Shown: positions 17,484 through 26,291 of the stretch, in pieces
Layout of the letters: each line of letters begins with the position of its first letter
How positions within the stretch are numbered: position 1 is the first letter of the stretch
Position numbers and translations under genes: made by a program
The notes under the pieces: model-generated
What the model saw: the letters and a program-made list of their open reading frames with translations, nothing else
The model's database searches: none
What the model was told of the DNA's origin: nothing
Source: an uncultured bacterium
GTDB taxonomy: Bacteria > Planctomycetota > Phycisphaerae > Phycisphaerales > SM1A02
Direction: 5' to 3'
Assembly (NCBI GenBank): GCA_903831295.1
Contig: CAIKXA010000061.1
Coordinates: 1-64,000, forward strand
DNA: 64,000 bases

Positions 17484-20400
17484 ATGGATACTGGCGCACT
17501 TGATTCCACGGATCCACCAGACCCATCGCCGCAAGCGAATGAGTCGGACTTGCCAACAATTGTGGGCTTGAACGCGCGCTCGGGACAGAAAAATCCTTTG
17601 GAACTTCTGGGTGAATTGGCCAAGGCTTCAAGTGTTTCACCGATGCCCGAGCCAATGCCTGAAACAATTGGGCGCTACCGTGTAGAGCGGTTGCTTGGTG
17701 TGGGAAGTTTTGGGCGTGTGTATTTAGCCCATGATGATCAACTCATGCGCGACGTTGCGATCAAGGTTCCGCGCAACACCTTGGTTATGGATCCAGCGAG
17801 CATGGAAGAATTTTTGCACGAGGCGCGCGCCGCCGCCAAGCTGAATCATCCAAATATTGTTCCTGTGTTTGATGTTGGCAGCAGTGACAGTTGCCCGTGT
17901 TTTGTGGTTTCGAAATTTATCGAAGGGTTTGATTTGGAAGTCCGAATTCAAACTCAGACGCTTTCGATGATGAAGAGCGTGGAGATTGTGGCGACGGTGG
18001 CGGAGGCGTTGCATTACGCGCACAAGCAAGGAATGGTGCATCGAGACATCAAGCCTGGAAATGTATTGATTGACAATGAAGATGATCGGCCCATGATTGC
18101 CGACTTTGGTTTGGTATTGCGCGAGCAAGATCTGGGCACAGGCGCCAGGCTTGCGGGTACGCCTTCGTATATGTCGCCGGAACAGGCGCGCGGCGAGGCG
18201 CACCGCGTTGATGGTCGCGCCGACATTTTTAGTTTGGGTGTTGTGATGTACGTGTTGCTGACAGGACGTCGTCCATTTACTGGAACAACACAAGAGGAAG
18301 TTCTTGAACAGGTTCGCAACCTAGATCCGCGGCCGATGCGATCGATTGATGAAAATATTTCCAAAGAGCTTGAGCGAATTTGCTCGAAAGCAATGTCCAA
18401 ACGCGCGGCGGATCGATATTCGGTGGCCAATGACATGGCCAATGATTTGCGGGCGTATTTGGCTGATTCTCAGGCAAAATCGGGCGCTTTGACGAATGCG
18501 GGCAACGAGGCAACGCCACCGTCACTGGAATTATTGACGGAATCCAAGACCGTGGCGTCGACAGGAACCCAACCCAAAAACAGCGCTGCGAATCAGATTG
18601 TGCCCAAAGGCTTGCGGTCATTCGACGCATCGGACAGTGAATTTTTTCTGGACTTGTTGCCTGGTCCCCACGGACGCGATGGACTTCCGGAAAGTATTCG
18701 CTTCTGGAAGTCACGCATTGAAACGCGAAATCCCGATGAGGGCTTCGCGGTTGGAATGATTTACGGGCCATCGGGTTGCGGCAAAACATCGTTGGTGAAG
18801 GCGGGACTTCTGCCGCGCATTGATCCATCGGTGAAGGTGATTTATGTAGAGACATCATCCGACAAGACTGAAACCACATTGCTGAAGATGCTGCAACGGC
18901 GATTTCCAGAATTATCGCAAACGCTTTCACTTGCGGACTCGCTCAACGCGATTCGCCAAGGCAAGGCGCAGCGTGGCGATGAGAAGGTTTTGCTGGTGCT
19001 TGATCAATTTGAGCAATGGCTGCACGGCAATGGCGCAAAAAATGACACGGAATTGGTTCAAGCGTTGCGTCAATGCGATGGCTCGCGCTTGCAGGCGATC
19101 ATTATGGTGCGCGACGATTTTTGGATGGCGGCCACGCGCTTTATGCGCGAGTTGGAAATTCCAATTTTGGATGGAGTGAATTCCGCCGCGGTGGATTTGT
19201 TTCCTTTGCGACACGCTCAACGCGTATTGACTGCCTTTGGGCGCGCGTATGGAGAATTGCCGGCGACTGGCGAACTTTCAAAGCCGCAGCAGAAATTTAT
19301 CGAAGACGTAGTGGCTGGTTTGGCGCAAGATGGCAAGGTAATTTCGGTGCGCTTAACGCTGTTTGCGGAGATGTTTAAAGGGAAACGGTGGGATTCAAAT
19401 ACGCTGCGCGATATTGGTGGAACAGAGGGTGTTGGCGCGGCATTTTTGGAGGAAAATTTCAGCGAACGTTCAGCGCTGCCAGCGCGTCGGGCGCAACGTG
19501 TTGCCGCGCAAGCCGTGCTGCGCGCGCTGTTGCCGGAATCTGGAGTTGATATTAAAGGCCACATGCGTTCACGCATGCAGTTGCAGTTGGTGGCGGGTGA
19601 TGAAAACAAGCCGCGCGACTTTGAGGAGCTGATTCAAATACTTGATCGCGAGTTGCGCTTGATCACGCCGGTGGATTTGGCAATCACAAGTGATGGCAAA
19701 GCAACGGTCGCTACCTCGGATGGGTACTACCAACTCGCGCATGATTATTTAGTTTCCTCTCTGCGCGATTGGCTAACGAGCAAGCAGAAAGAAACCGCCA
19801 AAGGGCGCGCGAGGTTGTTATTGATTGAGCAGGCGAACAACTGGCAACAACGGCAAGATCAACGACAACTTCCCTCGCGATTTCAATGGCTACAAATTCG
19901 GCTGCAAACTTCGCGCTCAACTTGGACGCAATCACAACGCCTCATGATGCGAACTGCTGGAAAGAAATACGCGGTGCGATTTGCAATCAATATGGTGTTG
20001 CTCATCGCATTGGTATACGGTTCACGTGAGTTCTATTTACATACACGCGCGCAAACGCTTATGGAAAAATTAAGCACCGCCAAAATAGATGAAGTGCCGA
20101 AAATCTTGGGCGAAATGGCGGATTATCAAAAATGGCTCAGCTTGTCACTTGCTGAAAAATTAAATTTGGCGCAGATCGAAGGCAAGAAAAGCAAGCAGAT
20201 GTTGTATCAGTTGGCGTTGCTCCCGTCTGATTCTTCGCATGCGACCGAACTTTGCGACGTGATGTTGCGCGCCGATCCCGGCGAGTTTGAGGTGATTCGC
20301 GACGCGCTGGTGGAAACCCAAGAGCGGCACGTAGATAAGCTTTGGAAAGTTCTTGGATCGCAAGCCGCTACTAAACACAGCGAACGCTTGCGTGCGGCGG

Positions 20401-22058
20401 CGGCGCTTGCCAAATATGCGCCGCATGATCCGCGCTGGAATGAAATGAACACAGTTGTTGTGAGTGACCTTGTTCAGGAAAATTCCATATTTATTGGCGC
20501 ATGGAGCAAGGCGCTTTATTCTGTGAGGGAGCCGCTTTTGAAACCCCTCGTAGCAGTTTTTAATCAGCACGACAATGATCACTCCAATCAACGAACTGTG
20601 GCGACCAGTTTATTGTTGGATTTTTCCGCGGACAACGTGCCTGTGTTGTTCGACCTGTTGTTGAGCGCGGACAAGGAGCAATTTCATGAAGTGCTTTCGG
20701 TTTTGATGCCGCATAAGGAAAAAGTAATTCAACTTCTTTTGGACAAACTCGATGTGCAATCGCCACCCAACGCGCTTGCTGCGCAAAGAGACGAGCGAGC
20801 CAAGCAACAAGCCAGCGCCGCGGTGGCGCTTGTGCAACTTGATTACGCGGCCAAGATTTGGCCTCTCTTAAAGCACTCGCAGGATCCAAGTTTGCGCAGT
20901 TACATTATTGACCGTTTGGCTAGTTTTGGCGTGGATCCAGCCCTTCTTGTTGCGCAGGAGGCCGTGGCGAAAGATGTCTCCATTCATTGCGCGATTTTGT
21001 TGGCGCTGGGTGAATATCCACTTGAGCAAATTCCAGCGGACTTGCGTGAAGCCGTGACGAAGCGCGCGAAAGATATTTTTCAGACTGATCCAGATGCTGG
21101 GTTGCATGCCAGCGCACAGTGGTTGTTGCAACAGTGGGGCGAAAAGAAATGGCTGGACACCACTCGCGCCGTCATGCGCGACAATCCGCAAACGCAGGCG
21201 CAGAGAATTGCGACATTAAAATTAGCGTCTGAATCCAGCAAAGATGCGGCGAATATTTTCGCGCCGCGCTGGATTATGAACACGCAAGGTCAAACCGAGG
21301 TTGTGATCTTTGGTCCCGTTCAATTCATGATGGGTTCCAGCGAAAAAGTCGGTGGCACTTCTGCCGAGACTCAACATCCAGTGAAAATTTCCCATTCATT
21401 TGTGATGGGCGCCATGGAAATCACGCTGGCGGAATATCGCCGTATGAGTCCCGATTATTTAAATGATCCGAATGAGAAAGGATGGAATGTGAGATCGGGA
21501 GATATTCCAGTGGTGGCTTTGAATTGGTTTATGGCGGCTCGATATTGCAATTGGTTGAGTCAACAAGAGGGGATTGCCAAGGACCAGTGGTGTTTTGAAA
21601 TTGGCAATAATGAAAATGATGTGCAAATCAAACCCAACTATCAGAATCTCAAGGGCTATCGATTGCCCACGGAAGCTGAAATGGAGTTTGCGGTTCGCGC
21701 CAACTCAGCGACCGATTATTATTTTGGAGACGCGCCCGAATTGCTGGGAAAATACGCTTGGTATCAAGCCAATTCACAAAGCAAAGGATGGCCCGTTGGA
21801 ATGCTGAAACCAAATGACTTTGGTTTATTTGATTCGGCTGGAAATGTTTGGGAGTGGTGCGCTGATTGGTTGGGCCCGTATCCAAGCACACTCGTGGTTG
21901 ATCCACAAGGTCCAGCGACTGGAACCAAGCGGGTGTTGCGCGGCGGTGACGAGTACTACGGTGCCGAGACCGATCTTTGTCGTGCGTGGTGTCGTGGCAG
22001 TCGCACGGCGGATTACCGCGGATTGTTCAGCGGGTTTCGCGTGGCGCGGACTCCGTGA
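17484..22058 (+). CDS. Ser/Thr kinase - STAND-like ATPase - FGE-domain fusion protein
   Basis: A 1524-residue multidomain protein. Residues 64-325 form an active-looking Hanks-type kinase: G-loop GVGSFG, Lys94, HRD 187-189, DFG 207-209 and an SPEQ motif at 231-234. Residues about 385-780 are a STAND-like NTPase with Walker A GPSGCGKTS (428-436) and Walker B LLVLDQFEQW (503-512). A transmembrane segment lies near 831-850, followed by about 400 alpha-helical residues resembling HEAT repeats. Residues about 1265-1524 are an FGE/sulfatase-modifying-factor-like domain ending in GFRVARTP. The topology suggests a cytoplasmic kinase/ATPase and an external C-terminal sensor or ligand domain. The FGE-like end resembles the two downstream proteins but lacks their NNC-codon variable block. 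Confidence 0.9.
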   Translation: MDTGALDSTDPPDPSPQANESDLPTIVGLNARSGQKNPLELLGELAKASSVSPMPEPMPETIGRYRVERLLGVGSFGRVYLAHDDQLMRDVAIKVPRNTLVMDPASMEEFLHEARAAAKLNHPNIVPVFDVGSSDSCPCFVVSKFIEGFDLEVRIQTQTLSMMKSVEIVATVAEALHYAHKQGMVHRDIKPGNVLIDNEDDRPMIADFGLVLREQDLGTGARLAGTPSYMSPEQARGEAHRVDGRADIFSLGVVMYVLLTGRRPFTGTTQEEVLEQVRNLDPRPMRSIDENISKELERICSKAMSKRAADRYSVANDMANDLRAYLADSQAKSGALTNAGNEATPPSLELLTESKTVASTGTQPKNSAANQIVPKGLRSFDASDSEFFLDLLPGPHGRDGLPESIRFWKSRIETRNPDEGFAVGMIYGPSGCGKTSLVKAGLLPRIDPSVKVIYVETSSDKTETTLLKMLQRRFPELSQTLSLADSLNAIRQGKAQRGDEKVLLVLDQFEQWLHGNGAKNDTELVQALRQCDGSRLQAIIMVRDDFWMAATRFMRELEIPILDGVNSAAVDLFPLRHAQRVLTAFGRAYGELPATGELSKPQQKFIEDVVAGLAQDGKVISVRLTLFAEMFKGKRWDSNTLRDIGGTEGVGAAFLEENFSERSALPARRAQRVAAQAVLRALLPESGVDIKGHMRSRMQLQLVAGDENKPRDFEELIQILDRELRLITPVDLAITSDGKATVATSDGYYQLAHDYLVSSLRDWLTSKQKETAKGRARLLLIEQANNWQQRQDQRQLPSRFQWLQIRLQTSRSTWTQSQRLMMRTAGKKYAVRFAINMVLLIALVYGSREFYLHTRAQTLMEKLSTAKIDEVPKILGEMADYQKWLSLSLAEKLNLAQIEGKKSKQMLYQLALLPSDSSHATELCDVMLRADPGEFEVIRDALVETQERHVDKLWKVLGSQAATKHSERLRAAAALAKYAPHDPRWNEMNTVVVSDLVQENSIFIGAWSKALYSVREPLLKPLVAVFNQHDNDHSNQRTVATSLLLDFSADNVPVLFDLLLSADKEQFHEVLSVLMPHKEKVIQLLLDKLDVQSPPNALAAQRDERAKQQASAAVALVQLDYAAKIWPLLKHSQDPSLRSYIIDRLASFGVDPALLVAQEAVAKDVSIHCAILLALGEYPLEQIPADLREAVTKRAKDIFQTDPDAGLHASAQWLLQQWGEKKWLDTTRAVMRDNPQTQAQRIATLKLASESSKDAANIFAPRWIMNTQGQTEVVIFGPVQFMMGSSEKVGGTSAETQHPVKISHSFVMGAMEITLAEYRRMSPDYLNDPNEKGWNVRSGDIPVVALNWFMAARYCNWLSQQEGIAKDQWCFEIGNNENDVQIKPNYQNLKGYRLPTEAEMEFAVRANSATDYYFGDAPELLGKYAWYQANSQSKGWPVGMLKPNDFGLFDSAGNVWEWCADWLGPYPSTLVVDPQGPATGTKRVLRGGDEYYGAETDLCRAWCRGSRTADYRGLFSGFRVARTP

Positions 22059-22145: not shown

Positions 22146-22234
22146 AGTGAAACGCTTTGCAGAAAGGGTGGCACTAGGCGCTCCGATAACGCACCTTTGC
22201 AAGACAGTGAAACGCTTTGCAGAAAGGGTGGCAC
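22146..22234 (+). repeat. Tandem left-arm units of the palindromic element (60-bp period)
   Basis: The 29-base block beginning agtgaaacgctttgcag occurs at 22146 and again at 22206, exactly 60 bases apart. The second copy is the left arm of the complete 119-bp element. A weaker trace of the unit end (gctgagataacgcat) precedes the first, so the element appears to have grown by partial tandem duplication. Confidence 0.85.
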
Positions 22235-22325
22235 CAGTCGCTCAGACAACGCACCCCGCGCAAGCGGGGCTTGCGCGGGTGCTAAACTCGCTTGTGGTGC
22301 CACCCTTTCTGCGACGCGGGAATTT
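22207..22325 (+). repeat. 119-bp palindromic element, copy 1
   Basis: Outer arms 22219-22236 and 22295-22312 are perfect 18-bp inverted repeats. Inside is a perfect 11-bp hairpin (22255-22265 with 22269-22279, loop ggg). The same element recurs at 24101 and, inverted, at 26091, always 119 bp. Small open frames across it are by-products of the palindrome. It could be a REP/MITE-like mobile element or a structured RNA. Confidence 0.9.
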
Positions 22326-22524
22326 GGTCTGCGGTTACGCGGTTGCTCAAAGGTCTTAACCACTGCTGAAACGCCCATAAAATTCGCAGAACGCAACAGG
22401 TGCCGGCTTGCGCCTAAATCTCGTGCACCACATTTAATTCATAATTTTTTGCTTGATTTTATGCGTTTAGCCGCTATTTTTGGCAATTCTTATGTCCATA
22501 ATTTCCAAGTATTTGTGCACCACA

Positions 22525-23871
22525 ATGAAATTTTTTTTTAATTTCCAATTCCTAAGCGCCACCACTCGTCTGAACAATATCTTGCGCCTTGCCACGCTGG
22601 CCGCGGCATTCCTTGCGCTGCCAACACACGCGCTTGCGCAATCAAGTTGCCCCGAAGATTTGAACTTTGACCGTGTTGTGAATGGCGCAGACACGATGAT
22701 TGTGATGAATGCGTTTGGAAATTGTCCAGCAAGTCCAGCAAGTTGCCCCGCAGATTTGAACGGTGACCGCGTGGTGAATGTCAACGATGTTTTTATTGTT
22801 TTAGATGCTTACGGAAATTGTCCAGGTCCTGTGACAACTATTACCTCGGTTAGCCCTCCTAATCAACCAACTTCGGGTGGCAGGCCAATTTTTATTACCG
22901 GAACAAACTTCACTAGCACAAGCAGAGTGCAAGTGGGTGGCATCAATGCAACTGGCTTTCAATTTATCAACCACACATACGTAACCGCGATTACGCCCCC
23001 TGGCGCGGTGGGCTTGGCAACTGTGACAGTGACCACAGCGGGCGGTACTGCCACACGTGTGGGTGCCTTCAGATACTTTGATTCATCGTGGTACACGGTT
23101 ATTAATGAATTCCCCACCATCTCCCCAAATGCCACCGTGCGTCAGAATATCATTGCAACTGGATTTCCATGGCACGTGCGTGACAATTCTTCCCAGATTG
23201 AAATGTTGCTGGTTCCCCCTGGAACATTCACAATGGGTTGCAATGCGTTTGACCTTGGTAGATGCCATTCTAATGAGTCTCCCAGACACCAAGTCACGCT
23301 CACCAGAGCGTTCTATTTGGGTAGGTACGAAGTAACGCAGGCGCAGTGGCAAGCCAGGATGGGCAACAATCCAAGCTCATTCAGAGGCAACCCCAACAGA
23401 CCAGTTGAGCAAGTAAGTTGGAATGATATTGTTGGCTTTAGTACCGCAACAGGATTGCGCTTGCCAACTGAAGCGGAGTGGGAGTACTCCTGCCGAGCGG
23501 GAACAACAATGGCGATACACCAGTCGCGGCCACGCCCCAACGGCAGCAACAGCACTGTGTATCTTTATAATATTGCTTGGTTTCTCGGGAATGCTGGTGA
23601 GCGCACCCACGCCGTTGGCGGCAAAGACCCCAATGGGTTTGGATTTTACGACATGTCAGGCAATGTGTATGAGTGGGTCAATGATCGGTTTGGAAGTTAC
23701 TCCGTGGGCGCCGCGACGGACCCAACCGGACCTTCGACAGGTACTCGCCGCGTGCTGCGCGGCGGCGGCTGGGTCAGCAACTCCGACAACTGCCGTTCGT
23801 CGATCCGTGGCCGCAACGATCCCGACTTCCGCTTCAACGGCAACGGCTTCCGTGTCGCGAGGACTCCGTAA
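22525..23871 (+). CDS. Secreted dockerin-IPT-FGE protein, probable DGR variable protein (copy A)
   Basis: A 448-residue secreted protein. Signal peptide 1-39 (THALAQ). Two dockerin/EF-hand calcium loops follow (DLNFDRVVNGAD near 45 and DLNGDRVVNVND near 78), then an IPT/TIG domain (about 104-188) and an FGE-sulfatase/C-type-lectin-like domain (about 225-448) with GTFTMGCN, RLPTEAEWEYSCRAG and MSGNVYEWVNDRFG. The C-terminus RVLRGG...W...CRSS...R...P...GFRVARTP matches FGE-type DGR target proteins, where a lectin-like fold displays variable residues. Only one of the two FGE active-site cysteines seems present (NCRSS), so binding rather than catalysis is likely. Earlier ATGs at 22480 and 22492 exist; 22525 gives the best signal peptide. 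Confidence 0.85.
   Translation: MKFFFNFQFLSATTRLNNILRLATLAAAFLALPTHALAQSSCPEDLNFDRVVNGADTMIVMNAFGNCPASPASCPADLNGDRVVNVNDVFIVLDAYGNCPGPVTTITSVSPPNQPTSGGRPIFITGTNFTSTSRVQVGGINATGFQFINHTYVTAITPPGAVGLATVTVTTAGGTATRVGAFRYFDSSWYTVINEFPTISPNATVRQNIIATGFPWHVRDNSSQIEMLLVPPGTFTMGCNAFDLGRCHSNESPRHQVTLTRAFYLGRYEVTQAQWQARMGNNPSSFRGNPNRPVEQVSWNDIVGFSTATGLRLPTEAEWEYSCRAGTTMAIHQSRPRPNGSNSTVYLYNIAWFLGNAGERTHAVGGKDPNGFGFYDMSGNVYEWVNDRFGSYSVGAATDPTGPSTGTRRVLRGGGWVSNSDNCRSSIRGRNDPDFRFNGNGFRVARTP
23767..23844 (+). other. Probable DGR variable region (VR), copy A
   Basis: These 26 codons encode residues 415-440 of the upstream FGE-type protein. Compared with copy B (25676-25753) there are 22 base differences and no indel. 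They fall in 16 codons: 15 are amino-acid changes at codon positions 1 or 2 of NNC codons, and the other is CGT/CGC. The pattern is that expected from adenine mutagenesis of AAC codons in a template repeat. Invariant codons between them encode W, S, C, R, SS, R, N, D, P and R. Confidence 0.82.
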
Positions 23872-23930
23872 TTCCCTTTACCCTTGCTGAGTCCGCGGTG
23901 TTTTAAACGAATCCGCAGCGTAGCTGCGGG
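23845..23930 (+). other. Probable IMH-like 3' end of VR with GC hairpin, copy A
   Basis: Directly after the variable codons, 86 bases are identical to copy B, covering codons GFRVARTP, the stop and 59 bases of untranslated DNA. They include an inverted repeat with 7-bp stems (23913-23919 and 23923-23929, loop gta). DGR targets carry an initiation-of-mutagenic-homing site at the VR 3' end and, in the Bordetella phage case, a downstream hairpin needed for homing. No T-run follows the hairpin, so it is a poor terminator. Confidence 0.68.
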
Positions 23931-24418
23931 TGAGTCCGCGGAATCAGCTTCTCTTTTACTTTTTCCATTTCACTTGTACCTCTCTCCGCCAAAATTGCGG
24001 AAGTAGGTTTAGGAAAAAGTAAGCCTGGATTTGCGCGTGCGCAACAGGGGAATGGTTGTTCATTGCGGCTTCAGTGTGCAAATTTTAAAAATGCAGGCAA
24101 GTGAAACGCTTTGCAGAAAGGGTGGCACCAGTCGCTCAGACAACGCACCCCACGCAAGCGGGGCTTGCGCGGGTGCTAAACTCGCTTGTGGTGCCACCCT
24201 TTCTGCGACGCGGGAATTTGGGTTGCTTGCGCGGTTGCTCAAACGCTTCAAGTCACCGCTGAAGCGCCCATAAAATCTGCAGAACGCAACAGGTGCCGGC
24301 TTGCGCCCATATCTCGTGCCCCCACATTTAGTTCATAATTTTTTGCTTGCTTTTATGCGTTTAGCCGCTATTTTTAGCAATTCTCATGTCCATCATTCTC
24401 AAGCATTTGTACCCCACA
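23872..24418. other. Spacer between the two FGE-type genes
   Basis: Contains the 3' flank of copy A (to about 24019), about 80 unique bases, palindromic element copy 2 (24101-24219) and the copied leader of gene B. No other gene is supportable. The small frames here lie in the palindrome. Confidence 0.7.
24101..24219 (+). repeat. 119-bp palindromic element, copy 2
   Basis: Same orientation and length as copy 1. Outer arms 24113-24130 and 24189-24206 are perfect 18-bp inverted repeats. The inner stem 24149-24159 with 24163-24173 has one A-C mismatch, an intermediate state between the fully paired stems of copies 1 and 3. Confidence 0.9.
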
Positions 24419-25780
24419 ATGAACAAAAAATTCAATTTCCAATTCGTATGTTTTACAACACGCCTGAACAATATCTTGCGCCTTGCCACGCTGGCCGCGG
24501 CATGCTTTGCGCTGCCAACGCACGCGCTTGCGCAATCAAGTTGCCCCGAAGATTTGAACTTTGACCGCGTAGTGAATGGCGCAGACACGATGATTGTGAT
24601 GAATGCGTTTGGAAATTGTCCAGCAAGTCCAGCAAGTTGCCCCGCAGATTTGAACGGTGACCGCGTGGTGAATATCAACGATGTGTTTATTGTTTTAGAC
24701 GCTTACGGAAATTGTCCAGTTGCTGCGCCAACTATTACCTCGGTCAATCCTCGTATGCCCCAACCAACTTCGGGCGGCATGCCAATTACAATTACTGGAA
24801 CAAACTTCACTGGCGCAAGCGTGATGGTTGGCGGAGTTGCCGCTACACGCGTGCAAGTGAATAGTGCCGGAACATCCTTGACCGCGGTTACGCCATCTGG
24901 CGCGGTGGGCTTGGCGACTGTGACAGTGACCACCGCGGGCGGTACTGCCACACTTGCGGGTGCGTTTAGATACTTTGATTCATCGTGGTACACCGTTCTT
25001 GAGCAAAACCCCAGCGCCGCCGTGGTGCCAAATGCCACCGTGCGCGCGAATATCATTGCAACCGGATTTCCATGGCGCGTGCGCGACATAGGCACAGGAA
25101 TAGAATTGTTGCTGGTTCCCCCTGGAACATTCACAATGGGTTGCAATGCGTTTGACCTTGGTACATGCTCTACTTGGGAGTCTCCCAGACACCAAGTCAC
25201 GCTCACCAGAGCGTTCTATTTGGGTAGGTACGAAGTAACGCAGGCGCAGTGGCAAGCCAGGATGGGCAACAATCCAAGCTATTTCAGCAGGAATAACCCC
25301 AACAGACCAGTTGAGAGAGTAAGTTGGGATAACGTTGCAGGCTTTAACACTGCAACAGGTTTCCGCTTGCCAACCGAAGCGGAGTGGGAGTACTCCTGCC
25401 GCGCGGGAACAACCAGGGCGATACACTACACGTCGAGGCAACACCCCAACGGCAGCAACAGCTCTATTTATGCTTATAATATTGCTTGGTTTGGGGGGAA
25501 TGCTGGTGCTCGTACCCACAACGTTGGCGGCAAAGACCCCAATGGGTTTGGCTTTTACGACATGTCAGGCAATGTGATGGAGTGGTGCAATGATTGGTTT
25601 GGAAGTTACTCCGCGGGCGCCGCGACGGACCCAGCAGGACCTTCGACAGGTACGTCCCGCGTGCTGCGCGGCGGCAGCTGGGGCATCAGCTCCTACTACT
25701 GCCGCTCGTCGGCCCGTTACGACAACGATCCCGCCACCCGCACCGACTACATCGGCTTCCGTGTCGCGAGGACTCCGTAA
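24419..25780 (+). CDS. Secreted dockerin-IPT-FGE protein, probable DGR variable protein (copy B)
   Basis: A 453-residue paralogue of the protein at 22525 with the same order of parts: signal peptide (about residues 1-38, THALAQ), two dockerin EF-hand loops, an IPT/TIG domain (GTNFTGASVMVGGVAATRV), and an FGE/C-type-lectin-like domain ending in GFRVARTP. The signal peptide, dockerin pair and FGE core are nearly unchanged, while the C-terminal block of 26 codons differs at 15 residues. It keeps CRSS and lacks the other FGE active-site cysteine. The ATG at 24419 is chosen for the signal peptide; 24386 is an alternative. Probably a surface-displayed binding protein anchored through dockerin or calcium contacts. 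Confidence 0.85.
   Translation: MNKKFNFQFVCFTTRLNNILRLATLAAACFALPTHALAQSSCPEDLNFDRVVNGADTMIVMNAFGNCPASPASCPADLNGDRVVNINDVFIVLDAYGNCPVAAPTITSVNPRMPQPTSGGMPITITGTNFTGASVMVGGVAATRVQVNSAGTSLTAVTPSGAVGLATVTVTTAGGTATLAGAFRYFDSSWYTVLEQNPSAAVVPNATVRANIIATGFPWRVRDIGTGIELLLVPPGTFTMGCNAFDLGTCSTWESPRHQVTLTRAFYLGRYEVTQAQWQARMGNNPSYFSRNNPNRPVERVSWDNVAGFNTATGFRLPTEAEWEYSCRAGTTRAIHYTSRQHPNGSNSSIYAYNIAWFGGNAGARTHNVGGKDPNGFGFYDMSGNVMEWCNDWFGSYSAGAATDPAGPSTGTSRVLRGGSWGISSYYCRSSARYDNDPATRTDYIGFRVARTP
25676..25753 (+). other. Probable DGR variable region (VR), copy B
   Basis: The counterpart of 23767-23844, with no length change. All fifteen substituted amino-acid codons end in C in both copies (for example AGC, TAC, GCC, GAC, ACC and ATC here), which fits random replacement of template adenines at positions 1 and 2. 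It is embedded in FGE domain residues that would form the exposed face of a lectin-like fold. Confidence 0.82.
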
Positions 25781-25839
25781 TTCCCTTTACCCTTGCTGAG
25801 TCCGCGGTGTTTTAAACGAATCCGCAGCGTAGCTGCGGG
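25754..25839 (+). other. Probable IMH-like 3' end of VR with GC hairpin, copy B
   Basis: Identical over 86 bases to 23845-23930, including the hairpin stems at 25822-25828 and 25832-25838. Perfect conservation here, next to 22 changes in 78 bases, is the asymmetry expected of a DGR target. Confidence 0.68.
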
Positions 25840-26291
25840 GGAGTCCGCGGAATCAGCTTCTATTTTACTTTTTCCATTTCACTTTTACTTCTCTCCGCCA
25901 AAACTGCGGAAGTAGTTTTGGGAAAAAATCCCGCCCGAAATTGTCCCGTGAAATAAAAGAGTTTGCCACAAAATGGGCAAGCAAAAAATTGTCCCGCGAA
26001 GTAAAAACCGAGCTCGTAAGGCGCAAGTAGTTCGCGCGTAGTGATCATGGCTTCTACCACAAGCGAGTTTCGCAACCGCGCAACCCCCACAAATTCCCGC
26101 GTCGCAGAAAGGGTGGCACCACAAGCGAGTTTAGCACCCACGCGAGCCCCGCTCGCGTGGGGTGCGTTGTCTGAGCGACTGGTGCCACCCTTTCTGCAAA
26201 GCGTTTCACTTTCTTGCGCTAGTTGCTTGACCCACCCGTGGCAAACTCTTTCATGCATCGCGAGTTATCTGAGCGCCACACTCGCATGCAT
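25781..26291. other. Intergenic region after copy B
   Basis: Holds the copied 3' flank (to about 25928), two imperfect direct repeats sharing aattgtcccg (around 25939 and 25985), and the inverted palindromic element at 26091. No gene is supportable. The convergent acyltransferase gene ends at 26292. Confidence 0.6.
26091..26209 (-). repeat. 119-bp palindromic element, copy 3 (inverted)
   Basis: Reverse orientation relative to copies 1 and 2. Outer arms 26104-26121 and 26180-26197 are the same perfect 18-bp inverted repeats. The inner stem (26137-26147 with 26151-26161) is perfectly paired, but two base pairs differ from copy 1 with both partners changed, i.e. compensatory substitutions. Confidence 0.9.

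Follow-up and report, generated by a model that had tools for sequence, protein, structure and literature searches.

Two neighbouring genes with a variable block

The window is a stretch of 64,000 nt, part of contig C61 of a lake planctomycete genome bin (G000; 2.48 Mb, 120 contigs, 83.7% complete). Two neighbouring genes in it, here called targets A and B, share a 26-codon block that varies strongly between them. The genes, their variable region (VR) cores and the repeats that flank them are as follows.

22480..23871, + strand: target gene A, open reading frame; the ATG start is more likely at 22492
24386..25780, + strand: target gene B, open reading frame; architecture as in A
23767..23844, + strand: VR core of copy A, 26 codons
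25676..25753, + strand: VR core of copy B
22206-22324, + strand: 119-nt palindromic MITE-like repeat
24100-24218, + strand: the same repeat
26092-26210, - strand: the same repeat

The product of A has an N-terminus that looks by inspection like an export signal, followed by dockerin-like repeats, an IPT/TIG domain and an FGE/C-type-lectin domain. Pfam matches were FGE-sulfatase (3e-45), TIG (2e-12) and, below the cut-off, Dockerin_1 (2e-4) for A, and FGE-sulfatase (8e-46) and TIG (5e-10) for B. The closest solved structure was that of the Treponema denticola DGR variable protein TvpA (2Y3C, E=1e-39), which bears out a likeness to the Treponema family that the first-pass annotation had guessed. 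AlphaFold, run on 11 sequences, gave a mean pLDDT of 47, too poor for use; the C-type-lectin fold, with the VR at the end of the domain, is predicted from sequence.

Target A is adjoined upstream by a gene for a Ser/Thr kinase - nSTAND1 - FGE protein (17484-22058, + strand), whose FGE end showed no NNC pattern of the kind described below. Kinase- or STAND-FGE proteins are DGR targets in other systems (PMC10907252, PMC7517822).

Codon-level variation between the two copies

Copies A and B were compared codon by codon. The block contained 22 base differences, distributed 10/11/1 over the three codon positions. All non-synonymous codons (15/15) were NNC in both copies, and the one synonymous difference was CGT/CGC; the block had been described in these terms in the first-pass annotation, and our recount gave the same figures. 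In the remaining 430 codons, 173 differences were distributed 56/45/72 by codon position and made 40 codons synonymous and 78 non-synonymous, with NNC in both copies in 15 of the 78. The block therefore departed from the rest of the gene in its NNC bias (Fisher p=2e-9) and in its excess of non-synonymous codons (p = 0.02). When amino-acid changes were counted per 26-codon stretch over the whole gene, the maximum was the variable block (15), and the median was 5.

Template adenines in complete cassettes of the family

A hypothetical template with AAC at each variable codon was used as query against 151, later 181, relatives. The matches in other genera of the family were AAC-rich, template-like sequences directly adjoining a reverse transcriptase (RT). 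Such templates (TR) lie beside DGR RTs in at least ten family relatives, and this supports the original proposal that the block is a DGR variable region and its gene an FGE/C-type-lectin target. The RTs have a common GNLTSQ motif and are 31% identical to Brt of phage BPP-1, and the accessory gene of G056 matched NCBIfam DivGenRetAVD above the cut-off. The cassette order was VR-Avd-RT-TR in G087, G157, G197 and G196, and VR-TR-Avd-RT in G056. These intact cassettes have the target domain, VR backbone, AGG anchor and post-stop pyrimidine tract of the window, whereas Avd, RT and TR stand beside a VR in the cassettes only. At a locus of another genus (L105; G085 C123), the RT frame stops after its N-terminal part and runs into the TR; this RT is either mostly deleted or misassembled.

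Comparison of seven VR/TR pairs of relatives showed changes at 119 of 212 template adenines versus 5 of 418 other bases. Consensus adenines of ten relatives' templates, derived without the window, covered 19 of the 22 differences between A and B (p=7e-8). The VR varies at adenines of the relatives' templates, and the coincidence of template adenines with variable bases, on which the first-pass annotation had staked its reading, was thus found in the relatives. The three other differences were CGT/CGC and the second bases of codons 26 and 32; the second base of codon 26 is A in 4/10 of the templates, and that of codon 32 is T in most and A in some. A template varying at AAC codons, as first proposed, is too narrow, because codons 24 (GAT) and 26 (GAC) vary too in further copies, mostly at their single A. 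The template core predicted for the window's species is CGCTCGTCGAACCGTAACAACAAC.

The 3' anchor and downstream sequences

Both VR cores are followed by an invariant anchor and by two further elements.

23845..23868, + strand: 3' anchor of copy A, IMH-like and invariant, GGCTTCCGTGTCGCGAGGACTCCG; at 23860-23862 it has AGG in place of the AGC/AGT of templates
25754..25777, + strand: 3' anchor of copy B, likewise IMH-like and invariant, with AGG at 25769-25771
23869-23885 and 25778-25794: pyrimidine tract TTCCCTTTACCCTT after the VR stop codon
23886..23948, + strand: inverted-repeat hairpin 3' of copy A; fold -39 kcal/mol, z -4.2; genus-specific
25795..25857, + strand: inverted-repeat hairpin 3' of copy B; genus-specific

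FGE-type templates of the family read AG[C/T]-AC where the VRs read AGG-AC/GC, and each of the four copies in G000 (A, B, C15 and C101; the last two are described below) has AGG. Exceptions were seen among the VRs, in G013 (AAG) and in G010-C136 (CGG), and among the templates, where those of G095 and G218 have different ends. To judge from these sequences, AGG versus AGC/AGT would be the expected contrast of IMH and IMH*, which is known in Bordetella phage and Treponema (PMC4891356).

The hairpin follows both A and B and occurs in congeners as well, but was absent after the VRs of other genera, and we therefore rejected it as a family-wide homing signal. VRs of other genera are followed after the stop codon by a CCCTTTT-like tract of ~50 nt. 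A pyrimidine tract follows the stop in most targets and is absent after templates. Control ORF ends in relatives had a mean pyrimidine fraction of 0.52, and 4/64, which may themselves include targets, reached 0.75. None of the papers listed by a literature search ties such a tract to DGRs.

Further copies and the timing of rewriting

The targets are dispersed in the genome: the variable block was also found in two further G000 genes, on C101 (5473-5588) and C15 (483-566). The C15 copy was A/B-like in its 3' half only, with different, AT-richer codons in the 5' half, and this 3'-limited conversion fits homing started from the anchor end. The C101 copy departed at third positions (GAA, AAA, ATG). 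We consider it almost certain, jointly with the whole DGR explanation, that A, B, the C101 target and the 3' half of the C15 target were rewritten from one or very similar template.

The NNC pattern was absent from the other FGE paralogues of G000 (C94, C43, C91 and C33). As a control, one undiversified C94 paralogue was compared with its G007 orthologue over the same 120 nt, and only two changes were seen, both synonymous. This control bears on ordinary divergence under positive selection on the binding face, with no retroelement, which could in principle enrich a surface domain in amino-acid changes. Selection would not, however, hold the third base at C, leave synonymous sites untouched, or target the adenines of templates that lie beside RTs elsewhere, nor does it agree with the two synonymous changes of the control, and we regard it as extremely improbable.

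When copies from five members of the genus were compared, predicted adenine sites differed by 43-80%, the remaining VR sites by 1-10% and the gene bodies by 9-32%. The VR backbone was shared even by copies with 30% divergent bodies. Since the backbone was kept while the bodies diverged, rewriting from a near-constant template went on after gene duplication, and most likely it continued also after speciation. Between A and B, 1-3 of 81 non-adenine VR sites differ in spite of 13.6% difference in the bodies, which makes the rewriting recent relative to the duplication. From its flank, G011-C196 is likely to be an orthologue of B, and 18/30 adenine sites differ between the two. This gene was also the best match to the hypothetical template, and was rejected as a template because it has an AGG end and lies inside an FGE gene. 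One VR in the window's genus (L118; G015 C27) has a template backbone of the G056/G152 type from another genus, by transfer or by bin contamination.

Several dispersed copies with a common backbone could also suggest that silent cassettes exchange sequence by gene conversion, as they do in pilin and vls systems. The variants are not mutual mosaics, however, as adenine sites differ to the extent given above in every pair, and a search for promoterless silent copies found none; such conversion is therefore a most unlikely source of the variation.

Search for reverse transcriptase and template in the window's genus

No RT was found in G000 (84% complete) by a PF00078 search or by a five-sequence DGR-RT profile, and the same profile had no match in 15 congeners. 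A degenerate VR/TR pattern fitting any such template found no TR in G000 or the 15 congeners, and for Avd nothing above chance was found in G000. An RVT_1 match in G014 was rejected as a DGR RT, as the DGR-RT profile had no match there. The template pattern was absent from IMG/VR, and RT relatives in phages and plasmids were all < 60% identical, so that no mobile donor is indicated.

The first-pass annotation had held that a genome with neither template nor RT, together with the usual rate of synonymous substitution among further paralogues, would speak against its reading. The first part of this pair agrees with the searches of the incomplete assembly; the second does not, as the paralogues lack ordinary synonymous divergence in the block. 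We classed the block as a DGR target and not as a complete DGR, because neither RT nor TR was found and the assembly is incomplete.

The genus set comprised 16 genomes, eight of them >= 90% complete with low contamination. By a rough product of the missing fractions, the chance that random incompleteness removed the RT from all five VR-bearing genomes (G000, G007, G009, G011 and G013) is about 5e-5, and the absence is therefore systematic. Contigs often end near VRs, and of about 14 near-full copies of the 119-nt repeat in G000 several lie at contig ends; a short RT-TR contig could thus drop out in binning.

Remains of a cassette were found in G013. Its VR is followed, in the relatives' cassette order, by an Avd (E 3e-8) truncated after ARHLA, where it is joined to the mid-part of a cupin gene in antisense orientation. 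In C15, G009-C23 and G007-C89, the VR is joined straight to the cupin-side flank also seen in G013. Together with the cut RT of G085, these junctions suggest that cassettes have been pruned in the family while targets persist.

Such pruning raises the possibility that the blocks are recent fossils, that is, genes diversified by a DGR whose RT-TR cassette was then deleted in the lineage, with the variants frozen. The lack of RT and TR in all 16 genus assemblies, the truncated Avd and cupin-flank junctions, and the cut-down RT of another genus are consistent with this. The recent rewriting of A and B relative to their duplication argues against it, as does G013, in which the cassette is visibly cut: there the anchor has become AAG AAT and further non-adenine positions have changed, which sets it apart from A and B. 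We consider recent fossils a serious possibility, although somewhat short of an even chance.

Discussion

We hold with great confidence that A and B are remote DGR targets with the block as their variable region, and that DGR diversification of the two explains the pattern. A template RNA with AAC codons would be copied by a DGR reverse transcriptase with misincorporation at adenines. The mutated cDNA would then replace the 3' end of the FGE/C-type-lectin domain in exported proteins bearing dockerin and TIG domains, and as many as about 18 residues on the face presumed to bind a ligand would be changed while the backbone codons stayed fixed. Points against this reading are that no RT or TR was found in the genus and no Avd in the window's genome, the few non-adenine differences (CGT/CGC and codon 32) and the third-position departures of C101.

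The machinery would work in trans from DNA that the bin does not contain, or would have done so until recently. Two readings of it remain: an RT-TR on unbinned DNA acting in trans, or recent loss. A specific form of the former, which we put forward only tentatively and think rather unlikely, is a genus-wide 'detached' DGR, in which the dispersed targets, from several to eight or more in a genome, would be served by an RT-TR on separate unbinned DNA, with the AGG anchor and the post-stop pyrimidine tract as recognition and no hairpin.

The system shares much with the DGR of T. denticola and its TvpA-type proteins (2Y3C; PMC4891356): FGE-like C-lectin targets that are exported and carry the VR at the C-terminus, one TR for several targets dispersed in the genome, and a VR/TR difference at an IMH-like 3' end. 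In contrast, RT, accessory gene and TR are in the T. denticola genome while none was found in that of the window, and the window's proteins, which are not evidently lipoproteins, have TIG and dockerin-like domains. Thiohalocapsa PB-PSB1 likewise has incomplete, degraded loci, targets diversified in trans, MITE-like elements and FGE domains, but an intact RT/TR lies elsewhere in its genome, and STAND-type putative sensors are among its targets (PMC10907252). A degraded cassette has also been reported from Anabaena sp. 90 (PMC7517822). With the DGR of Bordetella phage BPP-1 the system has in common mutagenesis at adenines and an anchor at the 3' end; BPP-1 needs a hairpin after the VR (PMC3240598), whereas VRs in other genera of the window's family have the pyrimidine tract and no hairpin.

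The finding is firmly a known mechanism in a new place, the neighbouring genes of a lake planctomycete rewritten by a DGR. Three features are less usual: targets and machinery are separated throughout the genus, the anchors of VR and template differ across genera by a single base (AGG/AGC), and a pyrimidine tract follows the VR stop. A full-text literature search combining DGRs with Phycisphaer* gave no paper, and remote targets are missed by RT-centred surveys, as acknowledged in PMC8144416.

The targets most likely serve in recognition, at the cell surface or beyond it, through a rapidly varied predicted binding face, and the variable face would bind a ligand. The finding extends DGR diversification to exported dockerin/TIG/FGE proteins of planctomycetes. 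Because related cassettes are intact, truncated or absent, the loss of machinery versus the persistence of targets can be traced in this family.
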